A DNA stretch of 38,926 nucleotides, taken from assembly GCA_903929035.1 (NCBI GenBank), contig CAIYTF010000110.1, forward strand, positions 1 through 38,926. Direction: 5' to 3'. Below are positions 3,334 to 11,348 of this stretch, piece after piece. Under the pieces are notes generated by a model. That model was not told the DNA's origin, ran no database searches, and was given only the letters and a program-made list of their open reading frames with translations. The first letter of the stretch is position 1; each line of letters starts with the position of its first letter. Both the position numbers and the translations under genes were made by a program. Source of the DNA: an uncultured Ignavibacteriales bacterium. Its GTDB lineage: Bacteria > Bacteroidota > Ignavibacteria > Ignavibacteriales > Ignavibacteriaceae.

Positions 3334-3717
3334 ATGCTTTTCAGTGACGAATATAAAACTATCGAAGGACTGGCACAGGGACAATTCCGTGATAAAGGCA
3401 GCCGGTTTTTAGCATTTGCAATACCGGTAAATAATGAAAAGGAAGTTAAAACTCAACTGGAGTCATTGCGAAAACAGTACTACGATGCCACACATCATTG
3501 TTATGCATGGATGCTTGGATTTGACAAATCAGCTTATAGGGTAAACGACGACGGGGAACCATCAGGTACAGCAGGCCGCCCGATCTACGGTCAGATCCTT
3601 TCGCATGATCTCACCAACATATTAATTGTAGTTATCCGTTACTATGGCGGAACAAAACTCGGAGTTCCGGGTTTAATAAATGCTTATAAAATGGCTGCTA
3701 TCGAAGCACTGTTTACT
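3334..3717 (+). pseudogene. YigZ/IMPACT-family protein, truncated at the C-terminus
   Basis: Residues 1 to about 126 match the IMPACT N-terminal domain of YigZ-like proteins. Visible motifs are THHCYAWMLG, DDGEPSGTAGRPI, VVIRYYGGTKLGVPGLI and NAYKMAA. The family is about 200 residues with a second C-terminal ferredoxin-like domain. Here homology stops at about 3710-3717. The reading frame stays open to 3996, but that tail is only the antisense of the opposing secreted-protein gene. The gene has therefore lost its C-terminal domain by a rearrangement, or the join is an assembly artefact. The IMPACT domain alone might still fold, since its core motifs are intact. Confidence 0.8.
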
Positions 3718-4073
3718 TCAGTGGCTGTATTCCATTTTAACACGATGGTCTTCCCTCTTGGCTGTGCCGTAAAACTTACCAATTCAACAGGTAAAAGTGA
3801 CCCGGAACCGCTGGCACCGAAAGTTAGTTTTTGTGTTGATGATAAACTTTGGGATACTGTCCCTAATACGCGTAAGTCAAATTTTATCGTATCTCCGTTC
3901 GTGCTAAACGTTATTTTCTTCACGCTGTCAATCAAGCTGTTTTGTTCAGAGCCGCCGCTAAAAAGGACATTCAGATATGTCTGCGCACTAAGTTGAATTG
4001 ACAACAAAGCAAACAGACATATTACAATGGTTTTGTAATAACTATACCGCTTATACGTGTAACCTCTATTCAT
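3684..4073 (-). pseudogene. Truncated exported protein with LPVELVSFTA motif
   Basis: The 129-residue frame begins MNRGYTYKRYSYYKTIVICL, a basic n-region followed by a hydrophobic signal segment ending near LSAQ. It then runs through a short beta-rich region (KKITFSTNGDTIKF, STQKLTFG). Next comes LLPVELVSFTAQPRGKTIVL-KWNTATEVNS, a motif found just before the C-terminal region of many T9SS cargo proteins (normally LPVELVSF-x20-W-x-T-A-T-E-x-N-N-x-G-F-x-V-E-R). After NS the frame crosses into antisense YigZ sequence and stops. The Fn3-like domain remainder and the sorting domain are missing. The ATG at 4073 has AAGG eight bases upstream. The long structured leader is intact. Confidence 0.7.
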
Positions 4074-4096: not shown

Positions 4097-4134
4097 AAAA
4101 ATAAAAAAGGACGCGAGCCTATCCTTATACGTCC
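4097..4134 (-). terminator. Intrinsic-terminator-like hairpin 24 nt before the secreted-protein start
   Basis: In the minus-strand transcript the arms GGACGT (4134-4129) and GCGTCC (4114-4109) form six pairs around a 14-nt loop. They are followed by a T-rich tract (TTTTTTATTTTT, 4108-4097). It sits inside the leader of the gene starting at 4073, so it would act as an attenuator rather than as a gene-end terminator. Its loop and 3' arm are complementary to 4175-4188 of the palindrome upstream. Confidence 0.5.
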
Positions 4135-4135
4135 A

Positions 4136-4250
4136 AATCTGAGGTACTACCATACCCGACACAAAGACAATAAAGATAGGCTGCGTCCGTATTAGCGAAC
4201 GCAGTCCTACCCGCTTGTTCTTGTGTCATCAAAGTGGTAGTTTTCAGATT
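4136..4250 (-). repeat. 115-bp imperfect palindrome; possible structured leader RNA
   Basis: Four nested arm pairs can be traced: AATCTGA 4136-4142 with TCAGATT 4244-4250; ACTACCA 4146-4152 with TGGTAGT 4235-4241; GACACAAAGACAA 4158-4170 with TTGTTCTTGTGTC 4215-4227 (one mismatch region); and GATAGGCTGCGT 4175-4186 with ACGCAGTCCTACC 4199-4211 (one bulge). The terminal loop is 4187-4198. It lies directly upstream of a terminator-like hairpin and the minus-strand gene at 4073. It could be a riboswitch-like attenuator or a mobile palindromic element. I do not recognise a known riboswitch family, and it lacks integron attC boxes. Confidence 0.6.
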
Positions 4251-4620
4251 AAGAACAGAGCGTAAAGACTACAAAAAATATTACGAATAAATTACTTCGT
4301 TAATATTTCCAAGTTTAATTTTTGTTAATAGTGAAATTTAATAAAATATTTTGAATAAGCAATAATTATATAATTATTGACCGAACTTTTTTTGATTGGT
4401 AATGATTGTAATGATAGGAAAATGCGGCAAATTGTCTGAATCGCGGATTAACCTGATTATCCGAACTGTTCTTAAAATCCGCGATTCATTAAATTTTACG
4501 TGTATATTTTTGTTAAAGTAATCACAAAATATTTTTATGATGAATAAGTTATTCTCTATTGTTTGTATTGGAATATTATTTTTGTAACTTGTCTTTATTT
4601 ATTGGATCAAGGAGCATAAA
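4251..4620. other. Intergenic region with one perfect inverted repeat
   Basis: No gene was found. The stretch is AT-rich and contains the inverted repeat at 4438-4487 described separately. A ribosome binding site for the decayed antitoxin gene (AGGAG at 4609-4613) ends it. Confidence 0.5.
4438..4487. repeat. Perfect 12-bp inverted repeat, GAATCGCGGATT arms
   Basis: GAATCGCGGATT (4438-4449) is perfectly complementary to AATCCGCGATTC (4476-4487) across a 26-nt spacer. No U-tract follows closely on either strand, so it is not a clear terminator. Palindromes of this kind are often dispersed genomic repeats. It lies between the palindromic leader and the decayed toxin-antitoxin pair. Confidence 0.6.
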
Positions 4621-11030: not shown

Positions 11031-11086
11031 ATAAAAAAGACGGGAAAACGGCTTTTTGAATGAAATAATATCATACACCGTTTCCC
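11031..11086 (-). promoter_or_regulatory. Expression platform of the TPP riboswitch with competing hairpins
   Basis: In the transcript, GGGAAACGG (11086-11078) is the 3' strand of aptamer stem P1 plus the conserved GGGA. It can pair with CCGTTTTCCC (11051-11042). The same downstream strand can instead join a small hairpin, AAAAAGCCG with CGTCTTTTT, that ends in the T-tract just before the ribosome binding site (GGAG). In the simplest model TPP-stabilised P1 frees the downstream strand so the U-ended hairpin forms and transcription stops. The terminator stem is weak, so a translational mechanism is also possible. Confidence 0.5.
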
Positions 11087-11158
11087 TACGCCGGTATTAC
11101 CCGGATCAGGTGCTAAGGGTATGATTTCAGCTGCTGTTACGGCAACACCCCTAACGGT
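11077..11158 (-). promoter_or_regulatory. TPP riboswitch (THI element)
   Basis: The minus strand carries the conserved THI-box blocks in order: AGGGGTG, GCTGAAATCATACCCTT, CACCTGATCCGGGTAAT and GGCGTAGGGA. Stem P1 is visible as ACCGTT (11158-11153) with AACGGT (11082-11077). These match the pyrimidine-binding and pyrophosphate-binding helices of the aptamer. It leads the operon of TonB receptor, thiN and symporter. It ends about 60 bases before the receptor start. Confidence 0.95.
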
Positions 11159-11348
11159 TAAATTATATATAACTGACTATATTCTATCAGTTTATAGTAT
11201 CAATAATGTATTGCAAAAATAATGATAAAATTATTAATAATCAAGAGGCTGCAGGATATTGGGTGTGCTACAATAGCGTGTATATTCTTTTGCAGCGGAT
11301 GTATTATATAAGGAATGTTTTCAGTAGATGTATAAAAAGCAAATATTT

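Follow-up and report, generated by a model that had tools for sequence, protein, structure and literature searches.

An apparently new family of structured RNAs, probable riboswitch-like attenuators, in the leaders of Bacteroidota genes

The window, meaning the whole stretch of DNA that was analysed, comprises 38,926 nucleotides from an uncultured Ignavibacteriales bacterium. On its minus strand, an open reading frame (ORF) of 129 aa at 3684-4073 resembles a short exported protein: its N-terminus is signal-peptide-like, and Pfam gives no match at E <= 0.01. The ORF runs into the convergent UPF0029/YigZ gene (3334-3996, plus strand) and ends there. Further along, a TPP riboswitch (11066-11162, minus strand, 75.2 bits) stands before a thiamine uptake operon, with genes for a TonB receptor, thiamin pyrophosphokinase and a sodium:solute symporter. 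The leader of the gene that starts at 4073 contains, at 4258-4103 of the minus strand, a copy of a conserved structured RNA. It corresponds to positions 1-152 of covariance model R1 at 143.2 bits (E 4.5e-27), a match by construction given that the copy is in the model, and it is also recovered independently by model R2 at 50 bits (E 1.5e-8). R1 was built from 15 copies with helices P1, P2, P4 and P5, and in part from own-genome copies, which match by construction; R2 was built from 21 copies from other classes. The leader folds at -74.7 kcal/mol, as compared to -44.5 +/- 4.2 for shuffles (z = -7.3), and none of 200 shuffles is as good.

All parts of the element lie on the minus strand. Near the 5' end, TGTTC (p, 4253-4257) is the 5' strand of an internal pseudoknot with GAACA (q, 4216-4220), for which the comparison of own with swapped partners gives z -9.8 over 62 representatives. 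Helix P1 joins AATCTGA (4244-4250) to TCAGATT (4136-4142), P2 joins ACTACCA (4235-4241) to TGGTAGT (4146-4152), and P3 joins 4220-4228 to 4157-4165. The 3' strand of P2 is also the loop of a hairpin, H2 (4143-4156), in which GGTA and TACC enclose it. Because P2 and the H2 stem share one base, either the 3' strand of P2 is an H2 loop contacted by the 5' strand or the two are alternative pairings. The apical stem P4, which is the tip of a long palindrome, consists of a 5' arm, a (GGTAGGACTGCGTTC, 4197-4211), the proposed antiterminator strand, and a 3' arm, b (GGACGCAGCCTATC, 4175-4188). Beyond P1 lie the 5' arm of a local hairpin, c (GGACGT, 4129-4134), then a 3' arm, d (GATAGGCTCGCGTCC, 4109-4123), whose partner is b or, for its last six bases, c, and directly after d a U-tract (4103-4108). 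At least five of the first six bases of this tract are T in 112 of the 113 scored copies, from which three others (L100, L158 and L164), with no recognised U-tract, had been left out beforehand. A first-pass annotation, made by a model from the letters alone, had claimed that 4175-4188 can pair either with the palindrome arm or with 4109-4123, and this was correct to the base: in the window copy, b (4188-4175) can pair with a (4211-4197) and, through 14 standard pairs and one bulged base, with d (4123-4109).

Covariation was assessed on an alignment of 100 of the 118 copies, fitted to the model helices P1, P2, P4 and P5. In these helices 95.5% of cells are paired, versus 78.1% in shuffled and 36-47% in slid controls, and there are 557 double-change cells versus 137 in shuffles, in a type of test that is inflated by kinship among the copies; double changes occur in 29 of 31 pairs. 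P1 has double changes in seven of its eight pairs and 95.6% of its cells paired, and P2 occurs as 28 duplex types with at least six of seven pairs, all seven being present in 102 of 116 copies. Outside the model, H2 is paired in 97.7% of cells, with 50 double-change cells versus 17.2 in shuffles, and the pseudoknot p:q in 77.3% versus 73.2%, with 40 double-change cells versus 22.4. Comparison of own with swapped partners gives z -22.3 for P3, z -4.9 for a small 5' hairpin (P0) and, by duplex energy in 62 representatives of the 113 copies, z -16.7 for a:b (P4). For the duplex-energy test, strand b was located by a second finder; the first automatic finder misplaced a few rows (e.g. L077 and L091). 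Compensatory changes are thus present in P1, P2, P3, P4, the pseudoknot and H2, where their lack had been named in advance as evidence against a switch. G.U pairs far outnumber A.C mismatches, both in P1, P2, P4 and H2 (185 versus 35) and in b:d (149 versus 12), so that the conserved molecule is the RNA of the minus strand. Three further pairings were discarded: an outer stem that would join the 5' flank to c (own versus swapped z +0.7); an extension of P1 by p:c, which appears in single-sequence and consensus folds but is equalled in pairing by 499 of 500 shuffles; and a hairpin H1 (GAAAA/TTTTC) around the 5' strand of P2, which 137 of 2000 swaps reach.

The element is repeated within and between genomes. 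With the 188-base leader as query, blastn detects seven copies in the host genome, and 11 of the 97 genomes searched, the host genome counted, contain a match; R1 finds nine copies in the host genome. Matches to R1 occur in 31 of 196 genomes of the relatives' (order) sample, 59 of 391 of the class sample and 41 of 395 of the phylum sample, and R2 matches 58 of 395 in the phylum sample; each of the order, class and phylum counts includes the own genome, and the samples overlap. R2 matched none of 199 genomes in another phylum, that of a Clostridia bin. Carriers include Ignavibacteria bins, Stygiobacter, a Melioribacter bin and plasmid pB3-10 of Rhizosphaericola mali (Chitinophagaceae), a mobilizable plasmid on which the element (L207, 5001-5141) is flanked by a replication gene and by a hypothetical protein without a Pfam match. 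The species-rich genus g217 among the carriers is presumably Flavobacterium, and the copies from other classes are probably from Bacteroidia. A phage or viral origin was considered and set aside: no phage match was found, the sole IMG/VR pattern match (L133) does not fit the model, and neither do 20-mer matches in Clostridia (L125) and archaeal (L126) sequence.

Gene context was read from 40 of the 85 new class-sample matches and 20 of about 40 rows outside the class, in addition to the order sample; three antisense matches in one set and one in another, as well as L102 and L104, were removed before the counts. The element and the first ORF downstream of it share a strand in 53 of 57 cases in the order sample, 55 of 59 in the class sample and 19 of 20 for Bacteroidia-type copies, a total of 127 of 136. 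ORF calling relied on a simple ATG rule, such that some short first ORFs are possibly spurious, and the window copy was scored as opposite-strand only because a convergent ORF of 220 aa masks the 129-aa ORF. Copies scattered at random between genes, with none downstream, had also been named in advance as evidence against a switch, and this is not the pattern seen.

Such placement bears on the alternative offered in the first-pass annotation, a mobile palindromic repeat, taken here as a REP or MITE with no regulatory role. Several copies per genome, a patchy distribution (31 of 196), the plasmid copy and the duplication of the window copies together with the gene would suit a mobile repeat, but REP and MITE sequences are expected to be free in orientation and position, and the copies are instead oriented and set before genes, with compensatory changes in every helix, a G.U bias to one strand and deep divergence. 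A mobile repeat is therefore highly improbable. The paralogues of the 129-aa ORF behind L002 and L003 are truncated where their contigs stop.

A second alternative is a free small RNA that lies before genes by chance. It would account for an element that ends in its own terminator; however, 24 of the 53 same-strand downstream ORFs in the order sample begin 15-57 nt after the element, a gap that leaves little space for a further promoter, and the strand sharing of the terminator would have no evident use. We consider a free small RNA quite unlikely.

The first genes behind the element are diverse. Pfam searches of 50 first genes in the order sample (49 of the 53, plus the window ORF) found seven response regulators and six type IX sorting domains, as well as PAS, histidine kinase, CheW and fn3 domains. 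A further 50 of 55 first genes, from the class and other-class sets, gave six TonB plug domains, seven sorting domains, three epimerases, two RibD_C domains and one HSDR_N domain. By a crude rule, signal-peptide-like products are encoded by 29 of 44 first genes versus 55 of 196 background ORFs in the order sample, by 22 of 35 versus 25 of 65 in the class sample, and by none of 10 in the other-class set. The copies sought in relatives are thus often found before genes for exported proteins, TonB receptors and signalling proteins. A defence-gene regulon was considered and set aside, given that, when 50 first genes of the class and phylum samples were compared with PADLOC, each of the first 25 families listed was matched by one member only. 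No single pathway stands out among the downstream genes, so any signal is probably general.

Several loci have further features. Three of the four copies L202-L205 (L202, L204 and L205) precede a related ORF of about 130 aa, one of which was tested and has no Pfam match; restriction-modification-like genes lie further on at L202-L205, and the HSDR_N domain falls in the class and other-class set. Small ORFs upstream of L056, L062, L067, L080, L083, L088, L091 and L185 resemble, by eye, the toxins of toxin-antitoxin pairs (RelE-, PIN- or MazF-like). At L149, an rteR sRNA (1339-1421, 79.6 bits) about 1.4 kb from the element copy suggests a conjugative-element setting.

The third pairing, b:d, was left out of the alignment model and covaries strongly all the same. 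Its cells are paired in 90.0% of cases, as compared to 79.7 +/- 0.6% for shuffled and 33-61% for slid controls, with 124 double-change cells versus 39.8 in shuffles, and 10 of its 11 pairs have double changes. With its own partner the duplex averages -16.6 kcal/mol versus -10.7 with swapped partners (z -14.1; none of 5000 swaps; 62 representatives), whereas the negative control, the 5' flank with d (e:d), gives z -0.4. The pairing is rewritten between clades, as GGACGC with GCGTCC, GGGCGTTTTC with GAAAATGCCC or GGCGTGGGCTC with GAGTTCCACGCC, and can be extended to about 15 pairs in Bacteroidia-type copies. For the seven other-class representatives alone, 399 of 5000 swaps reach the observed value, a weak result because the sequences are alike. 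Two conserved stems that both covary, a:b and b:d, are therefore built on one strand, and the earlier description of a switch-like leader is upheld.

The direction of the switch is a separate matter. The first-pass annotation took the local hairpin to be the terminator, so that P4 with c:d would be the OFF state and b:d an antiterminator that draws d from c. The hairpin does exist in the window copy (4134-4129 with 4114-4109), although it is modest, the 30 bases that precede the U-tract folding at -8.0 kcal/mol versus -25.5 for the b:d duplex. It covaries in the Ignavibacteria sets (own versus swapped z -7.3) and also as helix 5 of the 100-copy alignment, which was fitted to c:d, and with a median of -9.8 it is a plausible terminator in the order sample; P4 with the local fold is also preferred at equilibrium. 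However, d is followed at once by the U-tract, which makes b:d a terminator-like stem in its own right, and by reaching the same U-tract it would itself terminate. A b:d duplex of -10 kcal/mol or below is present in 112 of 113 copies (54 of 55 in the order, 40 of 40 in the class and 18 of 18 in the other-class set), whereas a local hairpin of -6 or below is present in 75 of 113 (40 of 55, 31 of 40 and 4 of 18, respectively). The other-class copies thus mostly have no local terminator to prevent and yet keep b:d and the U-tract, which fits b:d as the terminator and P4 as the antiterminator. The earlier assignment, by which the third pairing prevents termination, is probably wrong and probably reversed; we hold it to be unlikely.

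The reading that we prefer, with modest confidence, is that the element is a cis-acting transcription attenuator in which P4 serves as the antiterminator and b:d as the terminator, d displacing a. The sequences themselves show the helices and how they covary, the use of one strand by two stems, the U-tract and the orientation of the genes; from these we infer termination, displacement, the direction (folded being ON) and a ligand or factor. The folded domain of P1, P2/H2, P3, P4 and the 5' pseudoknot would form first, with strand b retained in the apical stem P4. RNA polymerase would then make d, which is similar to a; the opening bases of d correspond to the base of P4 and its last ones to the tip, such that d could displace a stepwise, in the order of transcription. 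The completed b:d stem, which ends at the U-tract, would release the polymerase. A ligand or factor that holds the folded domain would let P4 resist, so that transcription continues beyond the U-tract and into the gene. Three observations weigh against this scheme. First, the nested fold of the window copy prefers P1-P4 (-64.2 kcal/mol) to b:d (-55.5), with pseudoknots outside the scoring, so that b:d would need kinetics, pseudoknotting or partial unfolding in order to form. Second, c:d covaries and adjoins the U-tract in the order sample; P4 with c:d could terminate alone, and any ON model has to explain this. Third, the downstream genes have no obvious common pathway.

What would hold the domain is addressed by two overlapping proposals. 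More tentatively than the attenuator itself, and at rather less than even confidence, we suggest that the element is a new, phylum-wide riboswitch class of Bacteroidota. A small molecule, perhaps a signalling nucleotide, would block the strand-displacement terminator that the element builds into its own apical stem, and would thereby turn on proteins that are secreted, at the surface or in signalling. A conserved aptamer-like fold does lie upstream of genes. Alternatively, the leader may be read by a trans-acting protein (an antiterminator, a NusG-like factor or an RNA-binding repressor) or by an antisense RNA rather than by a small molecule, while the strand exchange may be the same; this proposal overlaps with the preferred attenuator, which admits a ligand or a factor. 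The great diversity of the downstream genes would favour it, as would the gene that usually adjoins Bacteroidia-type copies: the upstream ORF is divergent in 16 of 20, and all 10 candidates tested match HTH families. At these loci (L239-L251 and similar), a divergent Cro/CI-type HTH gene is followed by the element and then by a TonB receptor or ECF-sigma-like gene. That neighbour is not general, however, given that upstream ORFs are on the same strand in 35 of 55 cases in the order sample and 29 of 57 in the class sample, as compared to 4 of 20 for the Bacteroidia type, and the conserved unpaired stretches and compact multi-helix domain with a pseudoknot are aptamer-like. We therefore judge a trans-acting reader to be somewhat unlikely.

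The family appears to be new, and the view that the leader belongs to no known class has held. At gathering score, no Rfam 15 family lies at the element in the window or in 40 further loci (L147-L166 and L187-L206), and weak matches in the window, at E up to 10, are only poor and implausible ones. The c-di-GMP-I riboswitch (RF01051) has no match in the window; its lack of a match in the own genome says little about genome-wide absence, since the control genomes gave none either. No description of the element was found in the literature searched, although a subscription paper, supplement or preprint could contain one; a term search of PMC11109978 and PMC8632094 found no occurrence of the taxon names or of TonB.

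Some known systems are similar in layout. In the purine riboswitch, one aptamer strand takes part in the terminator as well as in the antiterminator, and its loop-loop contact resembles the P2/H2 arrangement of the element. There, however, the shared strand is in P1, rather than in P4, the fold and size differ, and Rfam gives no match. The crcB motif is the fluoride riboswitch and the pfl motif the ZTP riboswitch. As described in excerpts of PMC2864571, the terminators of both motifs overlap the conserved domain, so that a folded domain should keep the terminator from forming and increase expression. The putative terminator of the element likewise overlaps its conserved domain; the element differs from both in having no sequence or Rfam match to them, in its genes and taxa, and in the place of its shared strand, which is the 3' arm of an apical stem inside the domain, with P1-P3 around it. 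The same excerpts list Flavo-1, Bacteroidales-1 and Bacteroid-trp as Bacteroidetes RNA motifs with Rfam numbers. These are structured RNAs from the same phylum, but none matches the element at gathering score or is among the weak matches listed for the window and L148. Unclassified structured 5' regions without Rfam matches are described for Flavobacterium psychrophilum in excerpts of PMC9723704, and those regions could overlap with the element, as compared by description only; the structured leaders named in the excerpts are those of pheA, hisG, ftsY, acsA, alaS and rimP, and not of TonB receptors of the element's kind.

If the proposed attenuator is real, a major phylum would carry a previously unlisted regulatory RNA that reaches nine copies in a genome. 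Its signal would be broad, because the element precedes genes for exported proteins, TonB receptors, response regulators and restriction proteins. The three stems that share strands would offer a clean, naturally occurring example of cotranscriptional strand displacement, and, as complete Bacteroidota genomes carry the element, a search for the ligand would be directly feasible.
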